From Melastoma dodecandrum (taxonomy: Eukaryota > Streptophyta > Magnoliopsida > Myrtales > Melastomataceae): a stretch of DNA of 64,000 bases. Both the position numbers and the translations under genes were made by a program. A model generated the notes under the pieces. It worked only from the letters and a program-made list of their open reading frames with translations. It searched no databases and had not been told where the DNA came from. Shown piece by piece: positions 484 through 60,653 of this stretch; the stretch's first letter is position 1, and every line of letters begins with the position of its first letter. The stretch is from contig JARUPY010000474.1 of NCBI GenBank assembly GCA_029817715.1, positions 9,362,001 through 9,426,000 on the forward strand, in the 5' to 3' direction.

Positions 484-1185
484 GCGACCAAGTCGACGCG
501 ACTCAAGGAGGTGCGACCAAGTCGACGCGATCAGCGACTGAGCAACGAAGAGTCGGCCAAACCAAGAGTCTCGAAGATGAAGAGAGCCTCGAGGAAGCTG
601 AATCATTTCGCATTCCTCATTTATGCTTTGCATTTACTTTGTTGCATTTCCAATAAGCCATTTATGGTTCGTCCATGAATCTGGCCTTGCATGCATCTAG
701 CCTAGGTTCATTTCGTGCATTTAAGTTCTTCTTCAGGTGTTCCCTATATAATGGGCACCTTGTACTCATTTGAAAACAAGCTTTTGAATCAAATTATAAA
801 CCCTTATCAGACTTAGTGTCTTTATCCGAAGTGAGTGGATTCTCCTTCAAACCTCGTTCTTCATTTGGTGGATTTCCAAGTGCGGATTGAGTAGAGTGTA
901 TCAACCGGTGGTGGTGTATCTGTATCCTCCGTGTTGTGCCTCGCCCTCGTCTTGTTCGTGGTGGTGTATCTGTATCCACGGTCAAACGAGTCTACCCGAG
1001 TCTTCTTTCACGGTGGTGCATCTGTATCCGTGAAGGTTGATCTCAAACCTTCCTTTTCTTCATTCAGCCGCATACCCCACACACTTTCCGTCCATACCGA
1101 CGTCACTCCATTCCGCACCCTTTTCAGTGACGTCCCCATTCGTTTTCGGTTTAGGAATCATCTATTCCTTGCCGTCCCCGTATCA
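408..1185 (+). repeat. 3' LTR of the left-edge Ty3/gypsy element
   Basis: The LTR starts TGATAC just after a purine tract (395-407) and ends GTATCA, a perfect 6-bp terminal inverted repeat. Its start and end match the termini of element B's LTRs (TGATGC...GCATCA), and a related solo LTR lies inverted at 24090-24858. The segment around 905-1030 holds three copies of a GGTGGTGTATCTGTATCC-like motif. The length, 778 bp, agrees with the relatives (756-769 bp). The left LTR is outside the window, so no target duplication can be checked; the right flank is CTTGG. Confidence 0.85.
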
Positions 1186-1329
1186 CTTGGAGTCTGCCCC
1201 AGCATACCACAGAGCTATTCTCGGTTCAATGGGCCATCGTATACCATGACCTTCGTGCACAAATGCTTTTTCTGGACAACTTCAAAGAACGAGATCTTCA
1301 CTTTTCACTGGAAATGATGCTAAAGACTG

Positions 1330-1990
1330 GTAAAAAACCCACAAGTATTTTTTTTTCTCTTGCTTACACTCTTGTTCATCCAATAATTCCCTATTTGTAA
1401 TTCTATGTCCGGCTTTTGATATTGATTCTGAGGCTTCTTCTCTTGAGCGTAGACCCCTTCCTGCTGGCCGCATGACTTGGTCCCGCCAAAAGGGGTTAGC
1501 GAAGTCTGCTAAGGGTAAGCAAATCAAAAAAGAGAAAGAGCCGAAGCCAACCAAGAAGAAGAAGAAGGTCTCGAAGAAGAGAGCTCCCCCGTCGTCAGAT
1601 GAAGTGCACTCCAATTCTGAGTACATAGAGTCCTTCTCAGTTGCTTTGAATAAACAAAGTAGGCTTATTCCTCCCACTGTCCCCCCCGGATTTCTGATAT
1701 CCCGACTTCATCAGCTCCTCCACCAGAGCTCTCCCCCAAAGACACTGGTGTCTCCATGGAAACGTCACCTCCAGAGGATCTACCCCTTAAATTCTTCTAA
1801 AGACTCTCTGAATAATTCCTAATAACTTTTAATCCCAGGAAGACAAGAGACAAGATTCAAAGTCAGATCCTTCTGAATTTTTGACTGAGGAAGCTAAGGA
1901 CCCCCGGCAAATTTTGAGATAAATCACGTGAGTATTTTCTTTCTTCTAAATTTCCTGTGTCTACTACTTGCTGATTGGCATTTTGTAGGG
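1330..1990 (+). other. Lys-rich exon-like segments next to a Tat-type LTR, possible relic of an antisense passenger gene
   Basis: An open stretch from ~1395 to 1822 encodes a Lys/Arg-rich segment (KKKKKVSKKRAPP near 1550) followed by Ser/Pro-rich sequence. Splice-like signals flank short open segments: AG at ~1834, GTGAGT at ~1928 and TTGTAG at ~1989. This resembles the basic and Ser/Pro linker exons of the antisense gene of element C (50666-53853). There is no clear residue-level match, and no PMD or coiled-coil part is present. It could be unrelated intergenic sequence. Confidence 0.3.
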
Positions 1991-38290: not shown

Positions 38291-38392
38291 TGGTCACAAT
38301 TAATTTGGATAATCAAGTTATTAAAGAAATATTGTCGATTGAGATAGTAAATCGATTCGTTAAGTAATAATAAAATTATAAGTGGATCATTA

Positions 38393-39294: not shown

Positions 39295-40872
39295 CTAGAA
39301 GGCGGTCAGGTTGCTTGTTTTATATACTGGTATACGGTTTGCTTCGACCTCCAGTTCAGCCTCGGATAATTCTCTTTCTTGAACAGTGATCTCTGCCTTG
39401 CATTTATCCAATTTCGACCTCAGTTCTGCCATTTGAGCTTCCAGTTGATCCCGTTCTTCGATCAGGCGTCGATGCTCAAAGGAAATCACCATTGCCTTGC
39501 TCTGGGCAGCGTCATGATTGATCAACTTTGAGGAAATCTCTTTCTAGTGCCCAACATTTGTCATGGCTCTCTCCCAGTCCTCGCAAGACTTCTAGAATGA
39601 CTCCTTAAGGCTTTGGCAAATGCTAAACAAGTTGATAGGAGCCCTGGCATGCCCCTCTATGGCTTCTATTGATCGAACCATTTCATCGATGTTGGACGAT
39701 GTTGGTTCTTCCCGTCGAAGTACATCTAACAACCTTTGAGCAAGTACTATCGAGTCACTCGAATCAATCCCCATTTGAGCCATGTTGCTTGAAGAAGCTA
39801 TCCGGTTAAGCCTTGTCGAGATCTTTGGTGTTAGTTTATAATCTTGGAGTAATTCCTATGATAGAAGTTATTACCAGAAGTACATCAAGCGTTTCAGCAA
39901 ATCCAGCATCATCCAGTCCTTTAGATGCCTTTAGAGTTGGAACATCGAACTGCGAAGGTATTTCTGGATGTGAGTCAACTTGAGTAGTTTGCTCGGGAAT
40001 GGATTCCTCAATGGTTGGGTCATGAGTATGTGGGAAGTTAAGTAATATTTAAATTCGCTTGAAATGAATTCAAAGAACGTACCTGTACGTTCGAAACATA
40101 GTTGGCTCTTCGCAATCTCATTTAAAGATGATTGTTTTGACGATCACATTTAGTCCCCCCGTCGAACCTTCCTCAGAAACGTTCTATGCTTGATGATTGG
40201 CTTGTACTCCATCACAGCTTCGATGTTAGGTGGAAGGTCCTCTGCTTGAGGATATGGGGGTATGAATAGGTCGTCGTATTCAACCTGTGCATTTATATAT
40301 GGTTAGAATTTTCACACGTTACATTTAAATTTTATCTTATGTTCACACTATCATGGGTCGTTCTTGGAGATAGAAGCAGTTGGTCGATACACACCATAGA
40401 GATATAGGTGCAGCGACTGACCGATGATTGCATCTCATCGGCTCTGTCGAAGCCTTAATTAGGAGATAAATCCCTATAGTTTTCCACGTGCTGCGTCGAA
40501 GATCGGTCCCCAAATTTATCCATTCGACGAACCTATCTACACCTGTAGTTGGAAAGACGTGCAAAGTTGAATCGTCGGAGTCAGGGGATCGACTCCAATT
40601 ACCTGGGTGAAGGAAACTGTCTCTGTAGATTGGAATGGCTGTAGGGTCAGGGAGGAGGTAATCGACAGACATATGGTTGTTATCCGCCGAAGGGTTGAAA
40701 GAACCGCCTCTGAAGAAGTGGCCCAGCGTGATTTGCCCGTTCTTTTCTGCCTCTTCTGCGCGAAATCGAAGGTTCTTTTGGCTACGGAATCTATTATATG
40801 GCTCCTGAACCCTTTGAAGTAAACCCCAGACCTGTTCAGCGGCGTGCGAATGTAGAATGCTTGAGGTGCCAT
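39295..40872 (-). pseudogene. Element A copy of the antisense PMD/coiled-coil gene (relic)
   Basis: It starts at MAPQAFYIRTPLNRSG (ATG 40872), about 100 bp after a minus-strand TATAAAA (40974-40980). Pieces match the PMD-like part of the element C gene: DYLLPDPTAIPIYRDSFLHPGNW, the FVEWINL segment and NCFYLQERPM (40670-40345). The middle (rest of PMD, linkers) is missing. A coiled-coil part remains at 39783-39295 (LIEERDQLEAQMAELRSKLDKC), with one TAG at the place of a Trp codon in the relative. The start contexts M-A-x-x-x-A-F are shared. Confidence 0.75.
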
Positions 40873-40980: not shown

Positions 40981-41028
40981 GAGGAAGATGGAGAAGACGA
41001 GTTGGCGCATGGAAGGAAGGGGGCAAAA

Positions 41029-42265: not shown

Positions 42266-42637
42266 GACCCACAATGGAGTTACTAAAGACGACTCATGTA
42301 TAGAGTCGACTAGGTCAACTCACCACAAAGATATGACTACCAATAGGACCCAATAGTAGCTAGGTCTACTCATAGGGTCAAGTCGACCTTATCCTGAACA
42401 AAGGCAACTACAGCAGCCAAAACCCGTACAAACAAAGCAAGTCGACGAGATGGGAATAAATTTATTTATTCCTAAAATCACGATTGTTAAGAATCGTAAC
42501 CGATTCTAATTTTCAGGAACGTGATCCCGTATCTCATGGGAAGTTGTTGGGACACTCCCACGATACTAGGGATCACGATCTATGACACGATCTGTAACAA
42601 GATCCACTCGTTACGTGTTAGACACGTACGAGTTCTC

Positions 42638-42646
42638 TATAAATAG
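42638..42646 (+). promoter_or_regulatory. TATA box of element C's LTR promoter
   Basis: CTCTATAAATAGCAAAGG, the same in the 3' LTR at ~54325-54333. It would drive the genomic RNA (inference from LTR position). Confidence 0.7.
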
Positions 42647-42756
42647 CAAAGGAGTTTCCAAAGACAAGGACGACCAGACACAGCCAAAGCTCTGAAGTTT
42701 GTTCGTCAACCTTAGGAATTAGATACCCTGACCCGGTTTACAGGTCAACTATCCTT

Positions 42757-42910
42757 CCACCGACAGAGTGAGCTCGTAGGGCCTTTGCCGTCAACCCCCC
42801 GCCAGCGACACCACCGACGGAGTGAGCTCGTAGGGCCTTCGTCACAGCTTTCCGCCAGCGACTACCACCGACGGAGCGAGCTTCCAAGGCCTTCGTCACA
42901 AGTTCTCCGC
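42757..42910. repeat. Three ~59-bp tandem units in the transcribed part of element C's LTR
   Basis: Each unit begins CCACCGACRGAGYGAGCT and continues GGCCTTYGYCGTCA/CACAG, then a CTCCGCC-like end. The 3' LTR has the same three at 54449-54604, and a related array lies in the LTR at 2310-2545. Confidence 0.9.
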
Positions 42911-43121
42911 CGTCACAGATTTCCACATCGTTGTCAACACTTGCACTTTTTTCCATTTCTAATGGCTGTAAGCCCTGTTTTCTTTATTCATTAAGATTGT
43001 AAGACTTGCATTTGATTTCAATAAAATTGTGCATCTTCTTACTGGCGACCATAAACTCAATTCCTGTGAGTCCTTTGCCAAATATTTCCGACGTGATCCG
43101 TTCTATAGGCGAACACGTTTT

Positions 43122-43138
43122 TGGCGACCACAGTGGGA
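43122..43138 (+). other. Primer-binding site of element C
   Basis: TGGCGACCACAGTGGGA lies 6 bp inside the 5' LTR. This form is usual in Tat/Ogre-type elements; I have not matched it to a specific tRNA. Confidence 0.7.
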
Positions 43139-43168
43139 GAAGAAAAAAAAAAAAAATCTTAGTCTCAA

Positions 43169-46100
43169 ATGCCAAGAAATACTCGAAGCCGTGAGTCTCA
43201 CAATCCTTTAAATGGGGAAAACCAGTCAGAACTTCCTCCGGGAATGAGCTTGCAAGCGCCGGTCCTAGGAGGCCAGGCAGCTACAAACCAGTCCACCTTT
43301 GATTCACATACCCCGTCCGAATTTATTTCAAGGTTGGAGTTCCACAAGGAACTGGGGGATGTGCGTCAGGAGTTGACTGATATGAAGGGTATTCTAATGG
43401 ATGTCCAAACTCTAATGGGGCGTCTTTCTGGCCCGAGAAACGAGGAAAGAGTAAGACCTCATATGAGAGAGACCCCCTTTAGGGAGTCTACGTTCATGGC
43501 AGACGCTCGACGGACTGCTCAAGGGCCACGTAACGTGACTTTTGAGCAATCTCAGATAAGGACAAATGCCCTTTTCGAACCCGGGAATCTAGTTCCCCCT
43601 AGTCGACCCTCTTCTTCACGTAATCGACCAACGGATACGTATTGGAATGAGGCAGAGGACTTTCAAGAGGAAACAGATCGAGGGGAGGATTTTATTCCGT
43701 CTCATCGCCCTGGAAAAGAACCCGTAATCGACGCGACTGGAGACCCCTATGAGCTTGGATCCCGAGGTGGAAACTTTCGGGAGGAGCCTTCTTTCTACAT
43801 GAGGAATCCAGCGAATCAGGCAATGGGGGAACGATCTCCGTACAGCCCGATAAGGTCGACTCGACCTCCAGCGCAAGCACCAGTAGGCGGTGTACCCCCA
43901 GACTTGAGGGAGGCCATAACTCAGGTTATAGAGCAAGTCGTCCCCGGAATAGCTCGGCGAGACGATGCCTGTTTGTACAGGTCTCCCTATCCTGCATATG
44001 TCGACAGGGATTTCCCTCTACCTAGAGGTTATAAGGTGCCCGACTTTACTCGTTTTTCGGGTGAAGATGAAATGACCCCACTCGAGCATGTCGCTCGCTT
44101 CACTCACCAACTTGGTGAGGCGGCTGGGAACGACTTTTGGAAACTGAAGTTCTTCCCTAACTCGTTAACAGGAGATGCCTTTACGTGGTATGCGAGTTTG
44201 CCGCCAGGGTCAGTAGCCTCGTGGACTCAGATGCAGTCTATGTTCGTTAAGACCTTTGCTCGACTGGACACCCCCATGTCGATGTTTGAGGTAATGCGCC
44301 TTAAGCAGGCTAACGGAGAACACCCAGGGCAGTTTCTAATGAAACTTAGGAAGGCCCTACTACGGTGTAGACCCCCCATACCGGAGAAGGATCAATTACT
44401 TCTCGCATTAAATGCGTTGACTATCCCGTTCCGGAAAAAGCTGCAGGGCGAGCGCTTTGCTGACCTGTATGAATTAGCAAGGAGGGCTACTGAGTATCAT
44501 CAGCTCCTTACAGAGGAAGCCCAGCTGACTCGAGCCTACCAAGTCGACACTTATGAAGTCGACGTAGCGGAATTTGTCAAGGGGGAGTCGACTATATGTG
44601 ATCCCTTGATTAAGAAGAATTCCAAAGCTAAGGCATCCCAAAAGAATGCCGAGGAAAGAAAATATTCTTTTGACACGGATAAAGTCGACGCTATATTCGA
44701 CTGGCTTTATCAAAGGAAAAGGATTAGGCTTAAGCCCGGCCATCGAGTCCCTCAGACAGAGAGGGAAAAGAATAGGAATGACTGCAAGTGGCATGGGTCC
44801 TTCACCCATGCTACCAAGGACTGTTTGTCCTTTAGAAATATCATCCAGGATTTAATAGAGTCTAAAGAGCTCCGTTTTCCCGAGGTCGACGAAGTCGCCG
44901 TGGTGGATGATAATCCATTCGGGGATGAAGTCGCCATTCATACGTTTGACATATTTGATGCTGAGGTTAATCTCTTAGAAGTTATTAACGACTCTGCTGT
45001 ACCCTCGCAGGACTTACAAGCAACCGGCGAGACTTTGGTGGCTAATGCCCTGATGAAGCGACTGGCTGAGCGTGGGGTCTTCATTCTGCCCAAAGGAAGG
45101 GAGAAGTGGCTATGCCACTGGCACTTGAACGACACTCATACTACGGATCAGTGCCACACGTTCAAGAAGTACCTACTGGACAGCAAGACGGAGGAGTGGT
45201 ACGACTTGACCCCGTTCGAGGAAGCAGCAATGTCGCTGAACACTCCCCGAGGATCTTCTCACGCCCTCAAAAGCCCTCCTAGCGCAGATCGCCGATTAGC
45301 CTTGCGAGGAGGAAGAGGAGGCCCCCAGGGTCACAAGGGGAATGGAGAGGCAGTCGCCCGGGGAACAGAACGCCCGGCACGGCGACTGGAGTTCATAGAC
45401 TCGTCTGGCCAAAGGGTCATCAAACAGGGGTACACTAGAACTACCCCTGTCAAGGAGATTAGACCGGTAGAGGAGCATAAGGAAGCGGACCAACCTCAGC
45501 AGGCCGTGAATCGCAGGCCCCGCTACGCGTCGCAGACAGTTGATCCTCAGGAACTGCGGAGGGGGCCACCCATTGCCCAATTCCTGGACGAAAAGCTGCT
45601 GTGCCAAAAGTGCAAGCTGATCGCTCACAACCGCATACTCATCACCCAGCTCTGCACAGCATGCTGCGTTAACTACTTCTTGCGGCTCGTCGACTTATCC
45701 GCAAAAGGGGAGATGCTGGTGAAGGCAGTCCGTCCTGAGGGCTCAGGTAATTCGAACCCTAACAAGCCCTCTTCGAATAGGCCAGCAGATAACCCTGTGC
45801 AGGTAGGATATGACCCAGCCGACGGAAGGTTTGTGGAGGTAAGTCGACTTCCTTTTGGTTCTAAGAAACCAAGGTTTGTCAAAGCGCTTAACCCTTCGTC
45901 TCAATGGCAGAAGGCGGAAAGGAAGGTTACGCTTCCCGTGAGGGCTCAAAAGAGAAAAGAAAGGCGTCTAAGTCACGCCCAGAAGAAGCCAAGAATGACC
46001 CCTGTGATGCCACCCTTTGGCGGGAACCACGCCACAGGGAAACAAGTCGCAGAGCCCGAGCGGGTCGAGTCTACTGACTACTCGGAAGACCCAGGCTCGA

Positions 46101-47083
46101 GCTTCGACTACACTCCTCTACGAGGAGATAAGCCCTGCGACTTCAACGCAGAGCAAGGGCCCCTCGTGAGCTGTAACGCTCTTACCCTCCCTGCGGAGTT
46201 CGCCTGCAACAACAAGTCGGAGGCACCGGAAGGTAAAACTCTCGACTCTAAAGTCACTACATTTCCTTCTGGCTTCCCTCTGCACTGGTTGAGGAAACCA
46301 TCAGATCGCATGAAACAGCATATGCATTCGCTGTACATCTTAGCCACCTTTGATGGTGTCTTAGTGGGCCGAGTCTTAATAGACAATGGCGCCACTGTCA
46401 ATGTTCTTCCCCTTGCCAAGTTTAGATTACTTGGGTACAAGCCTAGCGAGTTGGTGCGAACCGACGTAGCTGTAAGTGGCTTTAATGGGAGAAAATCCGA
46501 GTGCCTGGGCATATGCTCCGTGCGCCTAGGCGTCGGGAGACACGAGCAGGAAACTGCTTTCTTTGTAATCGATATAGCCCCTTCATTTAATGCGCTTTTA
46601 GGACGCGATTGGCCTCATAAGGCCGCCGCGATTCCATCTACTTTGCATAGGGAGTTAATCTTATGGCTTGACTCCGAAATAGAAATCGTTAAGGCTGATG
46701 AATACTCCTGTTGTGACAAGGGTATTTTGCATGCAGAGACGTGTAAGACAATCAAGGACCTTACTCTGGACCAGCGCTACAAGCTGGGAGACCCCCCAGT
46801 CGGACCCTTAGGTGAACCTTCTGGGAAGTTCGACTTCATCGTAAGCTATGGCACCTCTCACCCCAAGCCTGACGAAGGACCGATTGTGCCAACAGGATGG
46901 GGGCCCGACTTCACAGACAAGGACATAGACGAGGTCCTGCAGGAGGTAGTCACGACCAAGGATGGAGGCGAGACGAACAACAGACCAAGCGGCAACAAGG
47001 GAGAAGCGCCTAAGAGCCAAGAGAGCACTGCGACGGAGTTGGAGCCCGATAGACTCCTACACGAAGGGATGTATGGACAGTGA
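43169..47083 (+). CDS. gag-pro: Element C Gag-protease polyprotein (1304 aa)
   Basis: An uninterrupted frame from the first ATG after the primer site. The N-terminal ~270 residues are polar with a short coiled-coil-like stretch (FISRLEFHKELGDVRQELTDMKG). The Gag core spans ~290-470 (VPDFTRFSGEDEMTPLEHVARF, WYASLPPGSV). Two unusual knuckles of the form C-x-W-H-x5-H-x4-C occur at ~538-551 (CKWHGSFTHATKDC) and ~649-662 (CHWHLNDTHTTDQC). A Cys-rich motif CQKC...CTACC is at ~811-835. The aspartic protease shows VLIDNGATVNVLP (~1069-1081; D-N-G-A in place of the usual D-T/S-G) and LLGRDW at ~1142. Gag forms particles and protease cleaves the polyproteins. The frame ends at ELEPDRLL...YGQ; pol restarts 72 bases later after several stops. 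Confidence 0.95.
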   Translation: MPRNTRSRESHNPLNGENQSELPPGMSLQAPVLGGQAATNQSTFDSHTPSEFISRLEFHKELGDVRQELTDMKGILMDVQTLMGRLSGPRNEERVRPHMRETPFRESTFMADARRTAQGPRNVTFEQSQIRTNALFEPGNLVPPSRPSSSRNRPTDTYWNEAEDFQEETDRGEDFIPSHRPGKEPVIDATGDPYELGSRGGNFREEPSFYMRNPANQAMGERSPYSPIRSTRPPAQAPVGGVPPDLREAITQVIEQVVPGIARRDDACLYRSPYPAYVDRDFPLPRGYKVPDFTRFSGEDEMTPLEHVARFTHQLGEAAGNDFWKLKFFPNSLTGDAFTWYASLPPGSVASWTQMQSMFVKTFARLDTPMSMFEVMRLKQANGEHPGQFLMKLRKALLRCRPPIPEKDQLLLALNALTIPFRKKLQGERFADLYELARRATEYHQLLTEEAQLTRAYQVDTYEVDVAEFVKGESTICDPLIKKNSKAKASQKNAEERKYSFDTDKVDAIFDWLYQRKRIRLKPGHRVPQTEREKNRNDCKWHGSFTHATKDCLSFRNIIQDLIESKELRFPEVDEVAVVDDNPFGDEVAIHTFDIFDAEVNLLEVINDSAVPSQDLQATGETLVANALMKRLAERGVFILPKGREKWLCHWHLNDTHTTDQCHTFKKYLLDSKTEEWYDLTPFEEAAMSLNTPRGSSHALKSPPSADRRLALRGGRGGPQGHKGNGEAVARGTERPARRLEFIDSSGQRVIKQGYTRTTPVKEIRPVEEHKEADQPQQAVNRRPRYASQTVDPQELRRGPPIAQFLDEKLLCQKCKLIAHNRILITQLCTACCVNYFLRLVDLSAKGEMLVKAVRPEGSGNSNPNKPSSNRPADNPVQVGYDPADGRFVEVSRLPFGSKKPRFVKALNPSSQWQKAERKVTLPVRAQKRKERRLSHAQKKPRMTPVMPPFGGNHATGKQVAEPERVESTDYSEDPGSSFDYTPLRGDKPCDFNAEQGPLVSCNALTLPAEFACNNKSEAPEGKTLDSKVTTFPSGFPLHWLRKPSDRMKQHMHSLYILATFDGVLVGRVLIDNGATVNVLPLAKFRLLGYKPSELVRTDVAVSGFNGRKSECLGICSVRLGVGRHEQETAFFVIDIAPSFNALLGRDWPHKAAAIPSTLHRELILWLDSEIEIVKADEYSCCDKGILHAETCKTIKDLTLDQRYKLGDPPVGPLGEPSGKFDFIVSYGTSHPKPDEGPIVPTGWGPDFTDKDIDEVLQEVVTTKDGGETNNRPSGNKGEAPKSQESTATELEPDRLLHEGMYGQ

Positions 47084-47155
47084 GGAGAAAGGTCATGCAG
47101 TCGCTAATATCCTACAGCGACTTCAGAAGCATGTTAGAATGTCTAGGAAAGTAGG
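47084..47155 (+). other. Stop-containing gag-pro/pol junction of element C
   Basis: Stops follow in the gag-pro frame (TGA 47081, TAA 47105, TAG ~47138) before pol opens in the same frame. In Ogre/Tat relatives pol is expressed past such stops, by splicing in Ogre (family knowledge). Candidate acceptors TCTAG and AGTAG lie at ~47138-47152, but no convincing donor is identified here. Confidence 0.5.
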
Positions 47156-49117
47156 ATGCAAATAGGCAACATCACTCGCGAAGCTAGATCATGTAATAAC
47201 GTCAACATCGACTTAGGTGGTGTCCAGAGTCGTGAGTCACTGATGATGCCATGTGACTCACTCGTAGGCGTCAATTTAGGCGAGGCATCAAGCCCTCGAA
47301 TTGTTTTCATCAGTTCCTCAATGAATAAAGAACTTTTCAATTCTATCAAAGCTGCTCTAGAAGAGTTTAAAGACTGTTTCGCTTGGGATTACACTGAGAT
47401 GCCTGGCCTAGATCGCCGACTTGTGGAACACAAGTTACCAATCAAAACGGGATTTAAACCAGTCCAACAGGCACCGAGGAGAATGACTCATGAAGTCACT
47501 CAAGCAGTATTCGAGGAAGTCAAGAAGCTCTTTAAAGCTGGATATATAAGGACATCGAGGTACACCGAATGGATATCCAGTATAGTTCCTGTCATTAAGA
47601 AGAATGGCAAGATTAGAGTTTGCATCGATTTCAGAGACTTAAATCGTGCCACTCCGAAGGACGAGTACCCCATGCCTATCGCAGACGACTTAGTCGACAA
47701 GACTGCAGGGCACCAAATTATGTCCTTCATGGATGGTTTCTCAGGATATAACCAAATCTTCCTAGTTGAGGAGGATATCCATAAAACTGCGTTCAGGTGT
47801 CCCTTAGGCATTTTCGAATGGGTAGTCATGCCATTTGGACTCAAAAATGCTGGAGCAACCTACCAACGAGCCATGAACACTATATTTGATGCCTCGATTA
47901 ACAAAACAGTCGAAGTATACATAGACGATGTAGTGGTCAAGTCGCAAGACGAGAAGTCACATGTTGATGACCTTAGAAATGCTTTCATTCAAATGAGAAA
48001 GCATCAGCTCAAACTAAACCCTCTAAAATGTGCCTTCGGAGTCAGAGCAGGACATTTCCTAGGTTTCTTAGTTCATCGACGCGGCATAGAAGTAGACCAA
48101 AACAAAATAAACGCTATTCGAAAATTGAACCATCCGAGTAACAAGAGGCAATTGCAAGCTTTTTTGGGACGGGTCAATTATCTTAGACGATTCATTGGCA
48201 ATATAGCCGGTCGAACAGAAATCTTCTCGACTTTGCTAAAAGTAAAAGAGAGTTTCGTATGGAGAGAAGAACACCAAAGGGCATTCGAGGGACTAAAGGA
48301 GTATTTAATGAAACCACCTGTGCTCGCTCCTCCTCGAATAGACAAACCTTACCTACTTTATGTAGCGGCGACTGAGGCGGTCATTGGAGCCATGTTAGCC
48401 CAAGAGACAGACAACAAGGTAGAGAGAGCAGTTTATTACTTGTCCAGGCAGCTCTCCGCTACAGAAAAGCGCTATACAACTAAGGAGAAGTTGTGCCTAT
48501 CAGTCTTCTATGCTGTTAAGAAGCTGAGACACTATATCGGATCCCAAGAGGTTCATGTTATTGCCAAGTCTCCAGTCATAAAATACTTTTTCGAAAGTCC
48601 CCTATTGACCGGAAGAATTAGTAAATGGAGCTTGGTCCTATCCGCATACGATCTGCGTTTCAAACCTCAACAGTCGGTGAAAGGGCAGGCCTTAGCCGAC
48701 TTCTTAGTGAACCACGATCCATCTACATCAATCGATCAAGAGGAATCCCTTGAGGATGTCTGGCAAGCTTGGTTTGATGGATCTTCGGCGAAATCCGGCG
48801 TAGGCATAGGCCTCCACATACTTTCGCCACTAGGAAAGGACGTTCGCCTAGCATATCGTTTGTCGGCGACTCATACAAACAATGCGACTGAATATGAAGC
48901 GTTGATCACGCTCTTGAAGGAATTATTAGCCTTGGGAGCCAGGAAAGCCAGAGTAATGGGAGACTCTCAACTGATTATTAACCAGATGAATGGCGACTCT
49001 CTATGTCAAGAGAAACTCGCACCCTATCATCAAGTCGCCCGAAGGCTAGTCGAGCGGTTCGAAGCAATTACTTTCCTCTTTGTAGGCCGGGGGAAAACAC
49101 CATTGCTAACGACTTAG
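47156..49117 (+). CDS. pol: Element C pol: reverse transcriptase, RNase H and second (archaeal-type) RNase H
   Basis: 653 codons. RT: DYTEMPGLDRRLV (~77), WISSIVPVIKKNGKIRVCIDFRDLN (~137-161), MPFGLKNAGATYQRAMN (~222-238), catalytic YIDDVVVKS at ~255. The first RNase H follows (LYVAATEAVIGAMLAQ ~399, YLSRQLSATEKRYTTKEK). The second carries WQAWFDGSSAKSGVGIG (~536), NNATEYEAL (~579) and GDSQLIINQMNGD (~602). This additional RNase H marks the Tat lineage. RT copies the RNA and the RNase H activities remove it. The frame ends early at a TAG because one G seems lost from the run at 49089-49093. Integrase continues in the next frame. Confidence 0.95.
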   Translation: MQIGNITREARSCNNVNIDLGGVQSRESLMMPCDSLVGVNLGEASSPRIVFISSSMNKELFNSIKAALEEFKDCFAWDYTEMPGLDRRLVEHKLPIKTGFKPVQQAPRRMTHEVTQAVFEEVKKLFKAGYIRTSRYTEWISSIVPVIKKNGKIRVCIDFRDLNRATPKDEYPMPIADDLVDKTAGHQIMSFMDGFSGYNQIFLVEEDIHKTAFRCPLGIFEWVVMPFGLKNAGATYQRAMNTIFDASINKTVEVYIDDVVVKSQDEKSHVDDLRNAFIQMRKHQLKLNPLKCAFGVRAGHFLGFLVHRRGIEVDQNKINAIRKLNHPSNKRQLQAFLGRVNYLRRFIGNIAGRTEIFSTLLKVKESFVWREEHQRAFEGLKEYLMKPPVLAPPRIDKPYLLYVAATEAVIGAMLAQETDNKVERAVYYLSRQLSATEKRYTTKEKLCLSVFYAVKKLRHYIGSQEVHVIAKSPVIKYFFESPLLTGRISKWSLVLSAYDLRFKPQQSVKGQALADFLVNHDPSTSIDQEESLEDVWQAWFDGSSAKSGVGIGLHILSPLGKDVRLAYRLSATHTNNATEYEALITLLKELLALGARKARVMGDSQLIINQMNGDSLCQEKLAPYHQVARRLVERFEAITFLFVGRGKTPLLTT

Positions 49118-50529
49118 CCCAAAAAGCTTCGGGATACAAGGCTAGAGGAAGAAACGATTGTGTCCCCGAAATAGCTTCTCATTTAGTCCCACAAAGCGAT
49201 TTGTTCGCATTGGACATACTGGTAAGCGATAAAGATTGGAGAAAGACCATCATCGACTTCCTGACGGACCCAGCTCAAAAGGCAAGCCAAAGAATTAAGA
49301 CTCAGGCTTTGTCTTATACCCTCATAGATGGAGTACTCTACAGGAAAACCAAGGAAGGAGTACTGCTAAGATGTGTCGACTTAGACGAGGCGACTCCCAT
49401 AATGTTAGAAACTCATCAAGGTTTATGTGGATCCCATCAATCAGGCATTAAGATGTCTTGGGTCATTAAAAGACATGGATTTTACTGGCCATCAATGCTA
49501 AAAAATTGCATAGAAATGGCTAGAGGATGTCAAGAGTGCCAAAGGCATGGTCCTGCGACGAGAGCTCCAGCGTCCGACTTAATCTCAGTCATTAAGCCTT
49601 GGCCATTTAGGACTTGGGCCCTGGATATAATCGGGGAGATTCACCCACACTCGAGTAAAGGCGATGCCTACATTCTAGTCGCTACTGACTACTTTACCAA
49701 GTGGGTCGAGGCTCAAGTATATAAGAAAATTGACTACAAAGAGGTGATCGATTTTCTCAGATCTTCCATCATTTATAGATTTGGGATTCCCCAGAATATT
49801 GTAGTAGACAATGGCACCGTTTTCAATAATGAGAAGGTGCGAGAATTCGCTGCTGAGTTCAGCTTTTCAATCACTAATTCGACACCTTATTACCCCCAGT
49901 CGAATGGACAAGCTGAAGCTACTAATAAGCTCATAAAGAATAACATTCAGAAAATGGTTGGTGCAAATCCAAGAGAATGGCACAAACTATTACAAGACAC
50001 CTTGTGGGCTCTAAGAGTCACCAAGAGAGACAGCACAGGAGAAGCCCCTTTTTCGCTGGTATATGGGCAAGATGTTGTCCTACCTATTGAGATTCGATAC
50101 AAGTCGCTCAGGGTAGCTCATCCTGACTTGCAAGACGAGGCAATGTACCTCGCTTTAGAAGAATTGGAAAAGAAGCGACTCGACGTAATAGACCGACTCG
50201 AGGTACATAAGCAAAGAATTGCTAGGCACTATAATAAAAAGGTTGTCCATAAGCGCTTCAAAGTGGGCGACTTAGTATGGAAGATGGTCCTACCTCTTAA
50301 ATCGAAGGACCAAGTCCTGGGTAAGTGGTCTCCTAATTGGGAGGGTCCATATGAAGTGTGCGAGACATACTCATCTAATACGTATCGACTTATGACCAGA
50401 GAAGGGGATAAACATCCATTGAAGGTCAATGGTAAATATCTTAAATCCTACCGCGAGACCATTTGGGAAGCTCACCGTGGAATCCTAAAACGAAGGACTC
50501 CATTGATTTGGGAAGCGCTTAACTCCTAA
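49003..50529 (+). CDS. pol: Element C pol continued: integrase (separated by a frameshift)
   Basis: The real polyprotein enters this frame near 49093 (ENTIANDLAQKASGYKA); the earlier part is open by chance. The zinc-binding domain reads HQGLCGSHQSG ... CQECQRHG (~49415-49550). The catalytic core contains LDIIGEIHPHSSKGDAYILVATDYFTKWVEA (~49622), NIVVDNGTVF (~49795) and QAEATNKLIKNN (~49911), supplying the D-D-E residues. The C-terminal segment has FKVGDLVWKMVLP and WEGPYEV (~50255-50360). No chromodomain. It would insert the cDNA. In relatives it is fused to RT/RNase H; here translation would need a shift, or the copy is defective. Confidence 0.93.
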   Translation: MSRETRTLSSSRPKASRAVRSNYFPLCRPGENTIANDLAQKASGYKARGRNDCVPEIASHLVPQSDLFALDILVSDKDWRKTIIDFLTDPAQKASQRIKTQALSYTLIDGVLYRKTKEGVLLRCVDLDEATPIMLETHQGLCGSHQSGIKMSWVIKRHGFYWPSMLKNCIEMARGCQECQRHGPATRAPASDLISVIKPWPFRTWALDIIGEIHPHSSKGDAYILVATDYFTKWVEAQVYKKIDYKEVIDFLRSSIIYRFGIPQNIVVDNGTVFNNEKVREFAAEFSFSITNSTPYYPQSNGQAEATNKLIKNNIQKMVGANPREWHKLLQDTLWALRVTKRDSTGEAPFSLVYGQDVVLPIEIRYKSLRVAHPDLQDEAMYLALEELEKKRLDVIDRLEVHKQRIARHYNKKVVHKRFKVGDLVWKMVLPLKSKDQVLGKWSPNWEGPYEVCETYSSNTYRLMTREGDKHPLKVNGKYLKSYRETIWEAHRGILKRRTPLIWEALNS

Positions 50530-50665: not shown

Positions 50666-53600
50666 CTAATCTAACCCGCCAGCCTTTTTGAAATCGAAGA
50701 TAAGGGACTCGCGAGCTCGGCGCTTCGCGTTCACCCTATTCCGCTGGGCATAGAGGTCAATGACCTTTTCTCTATCTTTTCCAGTCCTGGCCTCCAGCTC
50801 CTCGATTTCCTGAGTGTTGATCGACGCAAGCTGCCGAGTCAGGTTATTCTTGAGGTTGGTATAAAACTCTATCTGCCTCTCTGCCTCGGTCAGCTTCTCT
50901 CGCACGTCGACCAAACGTTGGCGGGCGTCCTGTGCAGCTTTAGAGGCCTGCTTTCGAGCTTGATTGATCAACTGAATCTTCGAGTCAGTCGATTCCAAGA
51001 TAAGCAAGTCGGCGTCATAATCCCTCCAACGGGTCCAGTACGTCGACTTAAAGCTCTTGCAGGCCCCCAACAATTCATCCGTGACCCAAGGGGAAGCCTC
51101 GATTCTTTTAACCAGCTTCTGCATCCTCTTAAATGAGTCGATCTCTAACGGATCGATATGCAGAAGCTGGCACAACTCTTCAACATCCTCGTGAAGCTTC
51201 ACCCATGGGTCGCTAGTCGAGGTCGCTGCAGCAGGATCCTGCAGAATAAGAAATGAAATGTTGCTAAGACACAATATCCTGAAAAGTCGACACTTTCATG
51301 CAATCGAATACTTACCTCCGAAGGTAGTAAACCCTCAGAGCTTTCACCCGAAGAAGTGGAAGGAGTAGGAGCCTTCTTGCGACCAGCAGTCGTCTTCACT
51401 CTCTTCGGACGAGCCTGTAAAGTGTCGCGGTTAGAATCGCGATAACAACGCCATGCTTTGTGTGAAAGAAGAACACATACCATTGGTGGTGCAGGAGTGT
51501 GGACTGAAGAAGAAGGAACGCCTTGTTCTTCCTCCTCTCGCATCAACTGAGGTGGTGCCTCCTCTCGCGTTGACCAAGTTGAAGGATCGAGTAAAACCAT
51601 AGCGGTTCCTTCTTCTTGTAACAAGACTTCAGGAGCCTGCTCTTCCTAGAATAGAGTGTAATAAAACCAAAGTTCATATATGAACTAGAGTAATATATCT
51701 TAGCAGGGAGTCGAGCTCACCTCGGCGATTGAAGCCGTTGAACCTGTCTCGAACACAGGGGGAATAGGTTGGTCACCATCTCCGGTTGAAGCTTCGCCCT
51801 AGGCAATATAGTGCGGGTTAGATACAGAAGCTCAAGATGAATTAGAATCAGTAGAGTCATACCTCTGTAGTCGCCCCTGGAGCGATATCGACCGTCGCTA
51901 AGGTCGCAGGCGCCGCAGCAGATGATGAACTCACTACTGGTGATCTGAGTGGGGCCACCGCTGCTGGCGACCTGGAAGAAGAAGTCGCCGCTACGGTAGT
52001 CGGCGACTTGGGAAGAGGAGCCGCCACTGGAGATGGTACCCTCACCAGTTTCCTCCTCTTTGATAGAGGCATCTCATCGAGGTCTTCCTCCTCTTCCTCT
52101 TCGATCTCCTTGCGTTTTGAGGCGACGTTGGCCTTAGAAGAGTCGCCTCTAGTCGTTCGCTTGGGACCTGCGACTTTGGCCTTCCCCTTGTCGATCGGCT
52201 TGGGCTTGGAGGAACCAGGGGCAAGGGGGCTTTGAGCTTCGCTTTGCCGGGGCCCCGAGGAAGTAATGATCCTAAAAGGAAAAGAAGAAGAGAAAACTTA
52301 GGTCTAATATTAAGAACTCCATGCTGTTTAAACAAAGCTAAGTCCTTACCTCTCGCTTTGAGTTGAGCATCATCAGGATAGAAATCAGGTTCGATGGAGA
52401 CCTCGAGGAAGTGCATCAAGGATCGCAGCTCCTCATACATAGATGACCACAGCACAGTGAAGAACTGTGTGGCGAAGCAAGAGGAGGAACTGGATGGGAA
52501 CTCCATCCTGAGGAGTTGCGCCTTTCTGCTAAGCAACTCCAGGACCTTGGCGTCACCCGACTTGCACGGGATCTTCGTCGCCCTTCCAAGTAGGCCACCA
52601 GTGGCATCAGCAAAAGGGACCGCCGCGCTCTGGATGAACCCGAACTGTCTTGCGCACAGCTGAGGGTTATAGACTTCGAAGGACAGATAGTTGTCGAAAA
52701 CTACTGGCAAATCCCTGCTGGTGAGAGCCCCGTTCCAAAAGCCTGGAGCGATCTGGGGGTCGACCTTTTGGGCAATTGTTTTGTGACCTGGGAGAGGCGC
52801 CCAGTCGCGTCGATCTGCTCTCGCGAAATCAGCTATATGCTTCATATGGCCAGTAACTGAAGTAGGGAGCCACTGGTCTTTGCGCTGGCAGCATCGATTC
52901 AAGATGCTCTCCCCATAGTACAAGGCTTCAGGGGGCGTCGTGGGGACCTTGAATCCAGTCAACCCTGGCATCCACATGGCCGACCATAGATGGACCAACC
53001 AAAGCATGCCTCCTTCTGGATGCTTTGGGAATGGCTTGATTTGAGAAGTCGCCCTCTCCAGATCGTGATATAGCAGACCGAGGATGAAGGGACCCTAGGA
53101 AACTTCTTCAGTAGTCTCCCTCAAAAAGTTCGCCACTGCGTGAGACGTGTGGCTAACCTTCTTCCCAGGGAAACAATAGACAAATTTGCTCAGCCAGGTG
53201 CTGAGAAATTCGATCTCTTCCTGGGCGCCGAACCCTGCGATCGTTCGCTTCTCGCCCTTTTTCTTGCCCACTGAGGCCATCTGCAAGTGTTTGTTTACTA
53301 CTTCCATATACTGGAGGGCTCCCTTTGGACTAATGTCTCCTATCTGGGCATATTGACGCACTGGGCGGCCATTAATCTTGCTCCTGGTCAAAAACTTCAA
53401 ATCTGCCAAAGTGATGGACATAGGGCCTTCTGGGAAATAGAAGCAGTTCACCATGGAGTTCCAGAAAGGCAGAATAGCCGCACAAACCCTAGGATCACAG
53501 CTCTTACTAGCTATTGACATCCTAAAAAATCTGAGAATCTTCTGGTCCCTGAATCGATTTTCAAAATGATCCTCCCACATCTCTAACCACTCTATCATCT

Positions 53601-53853
53601 CGGCCTTAGTAGCAGAAGGGAAGCACAAAAAGGTCCCCTGCTTCTCCCAGTTGAGGGGATTAATAAAGTTGGGATGACAAACCGGGATAGGCTTCTCTGT
53701 GATGAGGTAATTGAGTGGCACCACTTCTGGAAACAGATGCTCCGGCAACATGGGTCCAAGAGCGACACCCGATCCTTGGTCTTCCGCGACCGGAATAGGT
53801 CCGGCCGGCCCCGCACGAGCATTGTGGAGTTCGAAGGCTTTGAAAGTTGCCAT
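50666..53853 (-). CDS. Spliced antisense passenger gene in element C: plant-mobile-domain-like N-terminus, coiled-coil C-terminus
   Basis: Start ATG 53853 (AAGATGGCAA; MATFKAFELHNARAG). Predicted exons: 53853-52350, 52271-51863, 51798-51721, 51645-51481, 51414-51316, 51238-50666, with five GT-AG introns of 64-78 nt. The last four exons are multiples of three, in phase 0. Residues ~40-400 resemble the plant mobile domain (PF10536-type): FYFPEGPMSITLADLKFL..INGRPV, FLSTWLSKFVYCFPG, LGLLYHDLERATSQ, WLVHLWSAMW. Then come basic (PKPIDKGKAKV) and Ser/Pro-rich linkers and a ~190-residue helical C-terminus (QARKQASKAAQDARQRLVDVREKLTEAERQ). Breaks: in-frame TAG at 53095-53097 and a one-base discrepancy after the first intron (~52272-52240). 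It lies between pol and the 3' LTR, opposite to both. Function unknown; a role in silencing evasion or regulation is speculation. Exon 1 alone could also be a single-exon form. Confidence 0.75.
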
Positions 53854-54000
53854 CTTTTTAAAGATCGGAGAGATTTTGGTGAAGGAGATGGAAGGGACGG
53901 AGGGTTTCAAGAACGAGGGTTTTCTGGGTTTCTTGAGGAGGAAGGTGAAGAAGTGTCGAGCAAGTAAGGAGATGGGCGGGAAAAGGACACTCACTCTCCC

Positions 54001-54010
54001 TTATATAGGG
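54001..54010 (-). promoter_or_regulatory. TATA box of the antisense gene in element C
   Basis: Minus-strand CCCTATATAA, ~150 bp upstream of the ATG and ~53 bp from the 3' LTR start. It suggests an independent promoter facing away from the LTR. Confidence 0.55.
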
Positions 54011-54062
54011 TGTGATTTTTTGCTAAGTCAGCATAGCTAACCCAGCATAAAAGGGGGGCTTA

Positions 54063-54804
54063 TGTTGACATAGTAAATAATTTGATTTCAATAAAATTGT
54101 GCATCTTCTTACTGGCGACCACAAACTCAATTCCTGTGAGTCCTTTGCCAAATATTTCCGACGTGATCCGTACGTAAAAAATCGTAACCGATTCTAATTT
54201 TCAGGAACGTGATCCCGTATCTCATGGGAAGTTGTTGGGACACTCCCACGATACTAGGGATCACGATCTATGACACGATCTGTAACAAGATCCACTCGTT
54301 ACGTGTTAGACACGTACGAGTTCTCTATAAATAGCAAAGGAGTTTCCAAAGACAAAGTACGACCATACACAGCCAAAAACTCTGAAGTTTGTTCGTCAAC
54401 CTTAGGAATTAGATGCCCTGACCCGGTTTATAGGTCAACTACCCTTCCACCGACAGAGTGAGCTCGTAGGGCCTTTGCCGTCAATCCTCCGCCAGCGACA
54501 CCACCGACGGAGTGAGCTCGTAGGGCCTTCGTCACAGATCCCCGCCAGCGACTACCACCGACAGAGCGAGCTTCCAAGGCCTTCGTCACCAATTCTCCGC
54601 CGTCACAGATTTCGACATCGTTGTCGACACTTGCATTTTTTCCATTTCTAATGGCTGTAAGCCCTGTTTTCTTTATTCATTAAGATTGTAAGACTTGCAT
54701 TTGATTTCAATAAAATTGTGCATCTTCTTACTGGCGACCACAAACTCAATTCCTGTGAGTCCTTTGCCAAATATTTCCGACGTGATCCGTTCTATAGGCG
54801 AACA
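54063..54804 (+). repeat. 3' LTR of element C, rearranged
   Basis: It begins TGTTGACATAGTAAATAA like the 5' LTR. It then continues at 54081 with a copy of the LTR's own 3' end (TTTGATTTCAATAAAATTG...CGACGTGATCCGT), after which the middle of the LTR resumes at ~54180 (AATCGTAACCGATTC) and runs to the end. The first ~500 bp of U3 including the tandem array is missing. Ends AACA. Confidence 0.9.
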
Positions 54805-56470: not shown

Positions 56471-56724
56471 CTCAATAACAAGGACGATCTTCCCTTGGCT
56501 AGGAAGATTTGCAATTAATGGCCTTCTCCCTCAAGTCCCAAGGAGACGGAAAATGAGTGGATGTTGCATCATGAGCCAAATGATTCCCTCTTCCCAAAGA
56601 AACCATCGTCTTGAGTGGAAAAAAGAATAAAAAGATTAACAACATCCGCTAAAAAAAGAGGACACTTCGTAAGAAGAAGACTTCGTGAGAAAAGGAGACA
56701 CACCCTCCCAAAGAGGGACACAAA
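56471..56724. other. No recognisable gene
   Basis: A-rich sequence with a GAAGACTTCGTGAGAAAAGGAG-like patch. Nothing identifiable before the boundary of element F. Confidence 0.4.
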
Positions 56725-57667
56725 TGAAAGGACATAAGGATTTCCTAAAAGAAAACACATCAACCATTTCATTAATAATTGTAGAGTATTATATGATTCA
56801 ATTTACAAAACGAAAGTTTTCTACCGAACATGAATATAAGCATGCATAGATCACTTCTACGACCTATCAAAACACGCAATAACCTTAGTCAAACGATTAG
56901 GTACGGTAGCTCAAGCACGCGCAACCAATTGCTCATAACAACCCTTGACATATATAAAAAACGAGACCTCGTCTCAAAATTATGACATACACCGTTGCGT
57001 TTCCAAATTCTAAAAAATAACAACTAAGTTGTTTCCAGCGGCATCCGAGAAAGTCACATTTTCAGCCTAAGCACTCCCCGTAAAAGCCTCATGTTTATGT
57101 ACTTACAGCAGCAAAATATCCCTACCACAGATGAAACCATCCGGGTGCGAAAAAGCACGAAACTTCCCTCGTGCCTTAGCTTTTCGCCCAACTTCTTCAG
57201 CCAACTAAGCTATCCAATACAACATTTCGAGGGTGGATTCCTTCTATCCAAATCCTTCTCATATCCGCCTCATAAGGTAACCCCATGGGCGTGTCGATGT
57301 ATTATCGTAAACTTCCATTCCGCCCATAATACATGGGTCGTTCGATCACTTTCATTTAACTATGCATTGTGCACTTAATAAACCCTCCTCTAACAGGAGT
57401 ATCAACTTCGAACCCGCTATGAATGATCATAACAAGTCCCTTTTCCAGCCCATGTTCACTCATTAATATTGTTCAATGTTCGTAAATTCGCATCCACGAA
57501 TGTTCGTGCTTGTCCGCAACCATCTAATTCGGAGTTTCGACCTTTCTTTTTCTCAATACCGACGAACCAGCCCGTCCATCTCCATTTGCCCTAATCTTGG
57601 GCCTCAATTATATGCCAAGGTATACACTCCGAATGGGCAGTCACGTACCCGCACGAACACACGCAAA
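56725..57667 (-). repeat. Truncated 3' LTR of element F
   Basis: It aligns with 60654-61590 of the right LTR, with a ~40-bp gap near 56790 and one small deletion. It stops at CACGCAAAA, where the RT relic begins. About 1.2 kb of the LTR is missing. Confidence 0.85.
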
Positions 57668-57676
57668 ATAAGATAA

Positions 57677-58144
57677 CTAATATGACTTGTTCTCCCACAA
57701 TGTCCTTACAACGATAGTTAAATGTTCCTTGTGCTCTTGTCGACTTTTTGAGTACACAATAATATCGTCTATGAATAGCACCACGAAGTGATCGAGGTAC
57801 GGTCGAAATACTTGGTTCATTAACGCCGTGAATACGGCTGGTACATTCGTTAATCCAAAGGGCATCACTTGAAATTTATAATGACCGTATCTTGTTCGAA
57901 AAGCGGCCTTCGGAATGTCCTCTTCCCTTATTATGATTTGATAATATCTCGATCGAAGATCTATTTTTGAATACACAACCGATCCTTGTAATTGATCGAA
58001 CAAATCATCGATTCGGGGAAGTGGATAACGATTCTTAATCGTGCTTTGATTCAACAAACGATAGTCAATACATAATCTCATTGAACCGTCCTTTTTCTCT
58101 ATAAACAATACAAGAGCACCCCATGGACTTACATTAGGACGCAC
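57677..58144 (-). pseudogene. Element F reverse transcriptase, N-terminal half
   Basis: 155 codons: [74 protein letters not shown] and catalytic FIDDIIVYS at ~57782-57756. Motifs and spacing fit the Del/Tekay chromovirus group. The C-terminal half, RNase H and integrase are deleted. It overlaps the protease frame by 16 bases in another phase, so one frameshift joins them. Confidence 0.9.
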
Positions 58145-58812
58145 AAACCTTTATCTACAAGTTCTTGTAACTGCGCCTTCAACTCCTTAAGTTCAGCCAA
58201 GCTCATTTGGTACAGAATACGAGAGATAGGAGTTGTTCCGGGAATAAGTTCGATCACAAACTCTGCATCTCTTTTCGGTGGCAGCCCCGGTAACTCCTCC
58301 GGGAAGACATCTGCAAAGTCTCGGACCACATCAATCCGCTCCAATACCAGTAAATCGGCTCCTTTATTCAGCCCCATCGCAAGAAACACTTCACGTCCTG
58401 TCCTTAAAAGATGGTGTACCCGCATCGCCGAAACCATTAAAAGTCGGCCGCATGGCTCGTGTGGTTCTTCGCCCGCCGCGTTGATCAAAAGACGCTTCTT
58501 CTCGCAGTCCACTTGAGCATGGCTAGAAGCCAACCAATCCATGTCCAAGATCACTTCAAAATCATTTATCTGAAACCCAAGAAGATTGATCACGAACTTC
58601 AAACCAGTCACCATCAATTCACAATTACGACATACATCATCAACGATAAACTCATCGCCCATAGGTAACAAAATCCTCATATGCCTTTCAACTCTTTCAA
58701 TCGGCCAGCCATACTTTTCCACACATCCACGCGATATAAATGAGTGTATAGCACCGGTATCAAACAATGTATGCACCAAAATACCTCGGATTCGAACCGT
58801 ACCTGAAATCAC
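58129..58812 (-). pseudogene. Element F protease and RT leader
   Basis: The active site VHTLFDTGAIHSFIS (~58780) has the D-T-G triad and is followed by a typical DFEVILDMDWLASSHAQVDC (~58560). Then come VVRDFADVFPEELPGLPPKRDAEFVIELIPG and [19 protein letters not shown], the standard segment before RT in this group. Frameshifted into RT near 58135. Confidence 0.9.
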
Positions 58813-58859
58813 TCCGGGGGATGCAGTCGCATCCGCCTTGGTGGTAACATTCAGTCTCC

Positions 58860-60639: not shown

Positions 60640-60653
60640 GCTCTAATACCACA

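Follow-up and report, generated by a model that had tools for sequence, protein, structure and literature searches.

A decayed antisense gene of the plant mobile domain family, with six predicted exons, in a Tat-clade LTR retrotransposon

What use might an LTR retrotransposon have for a gene that it carries backwards, with predicted introns, between pol and its 3' LTR? Such a gene is found in the window studied here (the whole stretch of 64,000 nucleotides), where it occupies the minus strand from an ATG at 53853 to a stop codon at 50666 in six predicted exons of about 940 codons, coordinates that confirm the position reported in an earlier note. The carrying element lies on the plus strand. 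Its 5' LTR (42485..43115; TGTTA...GAACA) is a direct repeat of the 3' LTR (about 54063..54804), whose start we infer and which follows a polypurine tract ending at 54058. Over 610 aligned bases, 12 transitions and 5 transversions separate the two LTRs (K2P 0.028). The 3' LTR holds one additional piece of 92 bp (54080-54171), whose sequence is the same as that of 54699-54790. The five-base sequences next to the LTRs differ (ACGAT and GAGGC) and thus show no target-site duplication. Six nucleotides after the 5' LTR, the sequence displays a primer-binding-site-like stretch, TGGCGACCACAGTGGGAG (43122..43139, plus strand), which we take to resemble the tRNA-Arg type. Next comes a gag-protease frame, open from stop to stop (43163..47083), with matches to PF03732 at 28.9 bits and to PF13650 at 21.9 bits, the latter below the cut-off of 24.3 bits. 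It is followed by an ORF for reverse transcriptase, RNase H and a second, archaeal-type RNase H (47147..49117; PF00078, PF17917/PF17919, PF13456) and by an integrase ORF (48982..50529; PF00665 at 50.4 bits, PF17921 at 31.1 bits). The last two overlap in different frames, so pol is split in this copy, with no single open frame.

The order of these domains identifies the element. PF17917 covers residues 399-501 of the reverse transcriptase ORF, PF13456 (39.7 bits) covers residues 569-648, and the integrase ORF comes next. A second archaeal-type RNase H, located in angiosperms between RH and INT, characterizes the Tat clade of Ty3/gypsy (PMC6317226); the element belongs to this clade, as the earlier note had proposed. 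It is probably a member of the Ogre/Retand group, in a Melastoma-like plant host. Of the features by which the Ogre lineage is recognized, RT/INT phylogeny, a primer binding site for tRNA-Arg and a frequent PMD eORF, the element has the plant mobile domain (PMD) and a primer binding site that may be of the tRNA-Arg type. The position and orientation of the antisense ORF would suit Retand. The Retand-typical domain Transposase_28 (PF04195) gave no match in the two pieces of exon 1 and exon 6 at E<=1, nor in the whole of P0005, a homologous Melastoma candidum protein discussed below, at E<=0.1. An antisense ORF with Transposase_28 was reported in 61 of 63 clusters (PMC11963269) and, elsewhere, in 23% of Retand elements (PMC6317226). 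Since the feature is not universal, a Retand identity by reverse transcriptase would still be compatible.

The TATA box of the antisense gene, CCCTATATAAGGG (54002..54007, minus strand; TATATAA at 54007), which the earlier note had also recognized, lies about 55 nt inward from the 3' LTR. All further coordinates of the gene refer to the minus strand. Exon 1 (52350..53853, 1504 nt) contains the ATG and the PMD, and is separated by intron 1 (52272..52349, 78 nt, phase 1; GAGAG/GTAAGG...TTTTAG) from exon 2 (51863..52271), a low-complexity linker with a KRRK motif whose reading frame shifts within the exon. Intron 2 (51799..51862, 64 nt) leads to exon 3 (51721..51798), the weakest exon, which has no counterpart in P0005. 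Beyond intron 3 (51646..51720, 75 nt), exon 4 (51481..51645) shows 52% identity to P0005 residues 642-689, with both of its ends at junctions. Intron 4 (51415..51480, 66 nt) and intron 5 (51239..51315, 77 nt) correspond to exact junctions in P0005, 689/690 and 722/723, respectively; between them lies exon 5 (51316..51414), which has an RPKRVK basic cluster and matches residues 690-722 without gaps at 73% identity. Exon 6 (50666..51238, stop codon 50668-50666) is predicted to be helical with a final helix of about 90 residues, and is 82.5-82.6% identical to P0005 residues 723-913. Exons 2 and 5 contribute basic clusters to the linker region, for which no structure is predicted.

Thus, all five compact introns of 64-78 nt described previously could be located. 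Each begins with GT and ends with AG, they are A+T-rich (56-68%, versus 41-49% in the exons), and exons 3-6, of 78, 165, 99 and 573 nt, are multiples of three, as had been noted. Intron-like GT-AG stretches numbered one in the 1504-nt exon 1, none in the 573-nt last exon and six in the 1.1 kb between, five of which are the named introns. This clustering is more than chance would give, by a single simple scoring rule that was chosen after the introns had been seen.

The predicted product belongs to the plant mobile domain family PF10536. The part of exon 1 before an internal stop (residues 1-252) scores 39.3 bits against a Pfam gathering cut-off of 34.9 bits, which upholds the PMD-like N-terminal part of the original description; the part after the stop scores 23.6 bits, below the cut-off when taken alone. 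The relatives P0005 and P0003 reach 92.2 and 82.8 bits. The earlier reading holds for the layout. It had overlooked two lesions: an in-frame TAG at 53097-53095, which cuts the PMD of exon 1 midway, and the frame change in exon 2. Splicing exon 1 to exon 2 leads into a frame with a stop inside exon 2, and the linker and later exons lie in another frame. In P0001, P0004 and P0005 the linker stays in frame, unlike in the window copy. The observation of an antisense PMD gene is real, with the correction that this copy is decayed and the full protein cannot be made from it.

Three protein searches, the last of which scored just the 7996 candidates sharing most words, returned ten related clusters (31 member sequences), all with representatives from Melastoma candidum; within this scope no relative from outside that species appeared. 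P0005, a protein of 918 amino acids encoded at another locus and open from end to end, is the only cluster to span the whole gene, the other nine being shorter models. It lacks the predicted introns, and its exon ends join residue by residue between exons 2 and 4, 4 and 5, and 5 and 6. Intron 1 is skipped in eight of the ten clusters (P0001, P0003-P0009), the other two having no corresponding part, and at the intron 2 donor the gene models of P0004 and P0008 stop one residue beyond, that of P0009 three residues beyond. The published M. candidum models combine RNA-seq, homology and ab initio evidence (PMC9911893), and splicing is therefore not proved by any one of them. P0001 and P0003 have ends that match the strand opposite to gag, which indicates that the annotation is imperfect. 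P0003 also departs from exon 2 exactly where the window copy changes frame, and the locus encoding it may thus be broken as well.

Conservation between the window copy and P0005, which are about 24% apart in protein sequence, follows the domains. The PMD is 79% identical, exon 6 about 83%, and the linker, the most diverged part, about 50%. Counted by residues, 323 of 409 are identical in the N-terminus and PMD, 87 of 172 in linker exons 2 and 4, and 156 of 189 in exon 6 (Fisher P about 2e-11 and 9e-11, from one protein pair with regions grouped afterwards). Outside this comparison stood residues 411-501, with 67% identity, exon 5, with 73%, and exon 3, which has no match. Open versions of exon 1 are present in relatives at 75-77% identity. 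When unconstrained drift of exon 1 was simulated to 77% protein identity, a mean of 6.1 stops accumulated and 0 of 400 runs stayed stop-free; at 98% identity the mean was 0.85 stops and 44% of runs were stop-free. This comparison is biased toward selection, as gene models prefer open frames. The earlier note had argued that introns kept on the antisense strand of an element transposing through RNA imply selection. We rejected antisense introns alone as proof, on logic: they remain unspliced in the sense genomic RNA, and passive survival through transposition suffices. What does point to selection, on sequence comparison, is that P0005 has kept splice junctions and frame despite its linker being the most diverged part.

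Of the coiled-coil end claimed previously, the long C-terminal helix was recovered in P0005, and the coiled coil itself is probable. An AlphaFold model built with 10 sequences predicts a helix at residues 821-909 (pLDDT 55-78 per block of ten); the PMD has no confident model (mostly below 40; mean pLDDT 34.7), which leaves the C-terminal helices as the usable part. The C-terminal region would accordingly be helical and probably coiled-coil. Searching the sequences of the PDB with the A2 profile gave no match at E<=1, and none of 17 pattern-matching stretches in an IMG/VR scan with P0005 encodes a relative.

Published examples exist both of PMD genes carried by Gypsy/Tat elements and of antisense genes at this position. 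PMD is present in 57% of Ogre elements (PMC6317226), and the PMD eORFs of Tat/Ogre Ty3-gypsy elements (clades PMD-A1/A2) share Pfam domain and element clade with the gene described here. The latter is antisense, 3' of pol, has six predicted exons and ends in a helical tail. Retand antisense ORFs (Grande gene23, RIRE2, Retand) typically encode Transposase_28, and PMD is absent from the domains listed in the accessible part of a Retand survey (PMC11963269). Accessible portions of published accounts of such elements contained no description of a multi-exon antisense layout; what is unusual here is the presence of several predicted introns. Single-ORF surveys, two of which, as excerpted, set their threshold at 250 codons or 600 bp, would catch only part of a gene with introns, and could therefore undercount such genes.

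How might the element benefit? The reading that we prefer, at about even confidence, is that the gene, read from an antisense promoter of its own, supplies a nuclear protein with an accessory role. This protein would probably counter host silencing, a step that is inferred. Host RNA polymerase II would transcribe the gene toward pol and the introns would be removed from this transcript; they would be harmless to transposition, being reversed in the sense genomic RNA. The protein might then enter the nucleus via its basic clusters, self-associate through the coiled coil and, by means of a domain that also occurs in the host silencing factors MAIN/MAIL1, interfere with or divert silencing at copies of the element. 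MAIL1 and MAIN act in silencing, and PMD-A clades are confined to Gypsy elements (PMC5418596); a counter-silencing role has already been proposed in a review (PMC8616336). The Arabidopsis MAIN/MAIL1 proteins (PMD-C) have a transposon-silencing role and are compared here by family, not by sequence; they are host genes, whereas the present gene is element-borne. A similar layout is known from HBZ of HTLV-1, whose spliced antisense transcript starts in the 3' LTR and whose product inhibits transcriptional activators (PMC1459196), although protein and virus are unrelated and the likeness is an analogy alone. More tentatively, and with doubt prevailing, the lineage may stably keep a multi-exon, host-like gene backwards that has spread to diverged subfamilies, with an HBZ-like spliced nuclear PMD-coiled-coil protein competing with MAIN/MAIL1 complexes and weakening silencing. 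PMD proteins are found in both host silencing and transposons, and an element-borne PMD with promoter, introns and coiled coil offers a concrete candidate silencing antagonist to test.

The same protein could have another job, assisting nuclear entry of the particle or integration complex or choosing insertion sites as a chromatin tether, without touching silencing. We regard this as possible, well short of even. The basic clusters of exons 2 and 5 would suit it, and the antisense Grande protein is reported to be nuclear, with a retroviral-accessory-like role suggested (PMC7264820), but PMD relatives of known role act in silencing, not integration. It is unlikely that the antisense RNA rather than a protein matters, pairing with sense RNA and feeding or limiting small-RNA silencing as a form of copy-number control. 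The gene is convergent with pol, from whose stop codon its own is 136 nt away, double-stranded RNA has been raised in a review (PMC7264820), and PMD genes are sources of phased small RNAs in tea (PMC10673657); an RNA-only role would nevertheless need neither the domain-wise coding conservation nor the frame-keeping junctions of P0005. Less probable still is a passenger, a host PMD gene captured as DNA, backwards with its introns, and merely carried while decaying. The broken frame would fit, as would the decay of the second and third PMD genes of the window and the single whole gene among ten related clusters, yet this account has to contend with the open exon 1 of relatives, the conservation by domain and the equivalent location of a PMD gene in an older element of the window. 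A chance antisense frame or gene-model artefact, which the interrupted copy and annotated models disagreeing at the 3' end might suggest, is refuted for the PMD and exon 6 by the PF10536 score and a full-length homologue sharing junctions; very improbable overall, it could still apply to exon 3.

The older element is also of Tat type, with LTR matches at 25053-25556 and 41028-41509 (K2P 0.112, versus 0.028 for the main element). Its decayed antisense PMD gene (39295..40872, minus strand; PMD match 40750-40265) shows 26-28% identity to P0003-P0007 and scores 37.8 bits with the A3 profile (E 7.5e-11), and its ORF has no Pfam match at E<=0.1. The ATG (40872) is out of frame with the PMD match. 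As in the main gene, a TATA box (40980) lies about 50 nt from the 3' LTR match. That this older element has its PMD gene in the corresponding position suggests that the arrangement has outlasted many transpositions. By eye, this second gene has a coiled-coil-like end; it is too decayed for intron calls. In the third PMD gene, a remnant on the plus strand (1155..1822), a donor-like GGTAAAA agrees with intron 1 in both codon and phase, and by our reading none of the three listed acceptors restores the frame.

The antisense gene of the young Tat-clade element is real. It runs on the minus strand in the interval that separates pol (which stops at 50529) from the 3' LTR, with its own TATA box at 54007, an ATG at 53853 and a terminal stop codon at 50666. 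Six predicted exons of 1504, 409, 78, 165, 99 and 573 nt are separated by five GT-AG introns of 78, 64, 75, 66 and 77 nt, and the A+T content is 56-68% in introns versus 41-49% in exons. Under one fixed scoring rule, chosen after the introns had been seen, there is one intron-like stretch in exon 1, none in the last exon and six in the intervening 1.1 kb, five of these being the introns themselves. The N-terminal part carries a plant mobile domain (PMD, Pfam PF10536) as two matches that follow one another along the profile (7-138, then 150-292); the portion before an in-frame TAG scores 39.3 bits, above the cut-off of 34.9 bits, and the portion after it 23.6 bits. An earlier note had described this gene with its own TATA box, five compact introns of 64-78 nt and a PMD-like N-terminal half, and in outline that description stands; it went astray on the gene's intactness and on what the introns prove.

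Protein searches returned ten clusters of relatives (P0001-P0010, 31 member sequences), with every representative named Melastoma candidum. The closest, P0003, shares 98% identity with residues 1-500 of the predicted product, a closeness that suggests an origin of the window in Melastoma or a near relative; P0004-P0007 are 75-77% identical; PMD scores reach 92.2 bits in P0005, a 918-aa relative from another locus, and 82.8 bits in P0003. Intron 1 is skipped at the predicted place in eight of the ten clusters (P0001 and P0003-P0009), the other two (P0002, P0010) being without that part. Past the donor of intron 2, P0004 and P0008 stop after one residue and P0009 after three, as expected if a gene finder had run into the intron. 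P0005, the only cluster to reach exon 6, aligns to the predicted exons with ends that meet residue by residue at the 2|4, 4|5 and 5|6 junctions; exon 3 is without a counterpart in it. The M. candidum gene models rest on RNA-seq data, homology and ab initio prediction combined in one pipeline (PMC9911893); they support splicing but stop short of proof. At their ends, P0001 and P0003 show 93-95% matches to the strand opposite gag (45256-45176 and 44480-44424, minus strand), explained either by errors in the gene models or by long antisense splicing that reaches into gag.

This copy has decayed. An in-frame TAG at 53097-53095 in exon 1 interrupts the PMD, and splicing of exon 1 to exon 2 enters a frame that stops within exon 2, the linker and later exons using another frame. 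The earlier note missed both lesions. The full protein is not encoded by this copy. The place of the TAG is a sense codon in eight of the ten clusters (P0002-P0009; the other two are without that part), and P0001, P0004 and P0005 continue in frame across the frame change. Since P0003 departs from exon 2 exactly there, its locus may share the same break.

Sequence conservation is region-dependent in the comparison with P0005. Identity is 79% in both the N-terminus and the PMD and 67% after the PMD; exons 2 and 4 stand at 50% and 52%, against 73% for exon 5 and 82-83% for exon 6. The N-terminus and PMD together (323/409 identical) differ from exons 2 and 4 (87/172) at P about 2e-11, as does exon 6 (156/189) at P about 9e-11, in a test that left out residues 411-501, exon 3 and exon 5 and grouped the regions after they had been seen. 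Simulated unconstrained drift of exon 1 to 77% identity produced a mean of 6.1 stops, with none of 400 runs stop-free, versus 0.85 stops and 44% of runs stop-free at 98% identity; gene models are selected for openness and most of the ten clusters are partial, which qualifies this comparison. The retention of introns in an element that transposes through RNA had been taken to imply selection. Antisense introns are reversed in the genomic RNA and thus compatible with retrotransposition, which explains their persistence but is by itself no sign of selection.

The carrier is a plus-strand Ty3/gypsy element of about 12.3 kb, bounded by direct repeats: a 5' LTR at 42485-43115 and a 3' LTR at 54063-54804, whose probable start directly follows a purine tract. 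The LTRs differ by 17 substitutions in 610 aligned bases (K2P 0.028). Pfam matches cover gag, reverse transcriptase (RT), two RNases H and integrase, with a weak protease match below cut-off. The second RNase H precedes integrase, an order published as diagnostic of Ogre and Retand, the Tat lineages of angiosperms (PMC6317226). The pol of this copy is interrupted too, the RT/RNase H and integrase ORFs overlapping in different frames at 48982-49117. Within 54063-54185, the 3' LTR holds an extra 92-bp piece (54080-54171) that repeats its own 54699-54790 exactly and is absent from the start of the 5' LTR. The two LTRs start differently and their flanks lack a target-site duplication, as if the element were a recombinant or the product of a template jump.

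A second Tat-type element, older than the first, has LTR matches at 25053-25556 and 41028-41509 (K2P 0.112) and its pol at 35514-38302, and carries a decayed antisense PMD gene (39295-40872, minus strand) in the same place. This second element is interrupted by another LTR element, with 86% identical repeats at 29461-30216 and 34464-35222 enclosing minus-strand RT and integrase pieces. The N-terminal part of this second gene is 26-28% identical to P0003-P0007 (profile E 7.5e-11); its ORF alone gave no Pfam match. Like the young element's gene, it has a TATA box (40980), some 50 nt from the 3' LTR; its ATG (40872), 108 nt further on, is out of frame with the PMD match. A PMD gene in this position thus predates the young element's insertion and is common to two elements; both genes probably derive from one ancestor. 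A third, far diverged PMD remnant (1155-1822, plus strand) has a 33-residue match to P0007 (E 1.1e-4) and a lysine-rich linker. Seven codons and one base past the match end, exactly as in the relatives, stands a donor-like G|GTAAAA where intron 1 begins in the young element's gene, and a T-rich stretch comes next. By our reading, all three listed acceptors break the frame, so this remnant is decayed.

PMDs have been reported in extra ORFs of 57% of Ogre elements (PMC6317226) and of Gypsy elements from ten plant species, or 40 with a looser filter (PMC9289625), and PMD-A clades are described as exclusive to Gypsy (PMC5418596). Antisense ORFs 3' of pol are recorded for Grande, RIRE2, Retand and PvRetro13 (PMC7264820), and one with Transposase_28 for 61 of 63 larger Retand clusters (PMC11963269). 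The 2020 review among these (PMC7264820) does not use the word 'intron', and it closes by calling for study of antisense and spliced transcripts. Judged by title and the start of the abstract, none of the papers listed describes an antisense gene with several introns in an LTR element of a plant, a weak negative whose scope did not extend to a 2011 survey. The abstract of that survey reportedly states that Tat extra ORFs vary in position and orientation, some having a transposon-associated domain.

Transcription from the antisense TATA box, followed by splicing of the predicted introns, would yield a protein that enters the nucleus and self-associates, probably through its coiled coil. Basic clusters occur in exon 2 (KRRK) and exon 5 (RPKRVK), and P0005 has clusters of similar form (QRKRLVK, RPKRVK). 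The AlphaFold model of P0005 (ten sequences) is poor (mean pLDDT 34.7): values mostly of 55-79 are confined to the C-terminal helices, the last of which is about 90 residues long, and no secondary structure is predicted for residues 487-734. The target of the protein would be host silencing, the most speculative step. The host PMD proteins MAIN and MAIL1 act in transposon silencing (PMC5418596, PMC7156037), and a review raises the possibility that element PMDs oppose it (PMC8616336); on this basis we take the protein, with moderate confidence, to be a silencing antagonist. The nearest rival is that it aids nuclear import or integration.

Elsewhere in the window, an 806-aa open frame at 12294-14714 (plus strand) resembles, by eye, a host C2-domain membrane protein. 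A further repeat pair, 83% identical (56721-57672 and 60650-61593; span 56721-61593), encloses a minus-strand gypsy RT piece.
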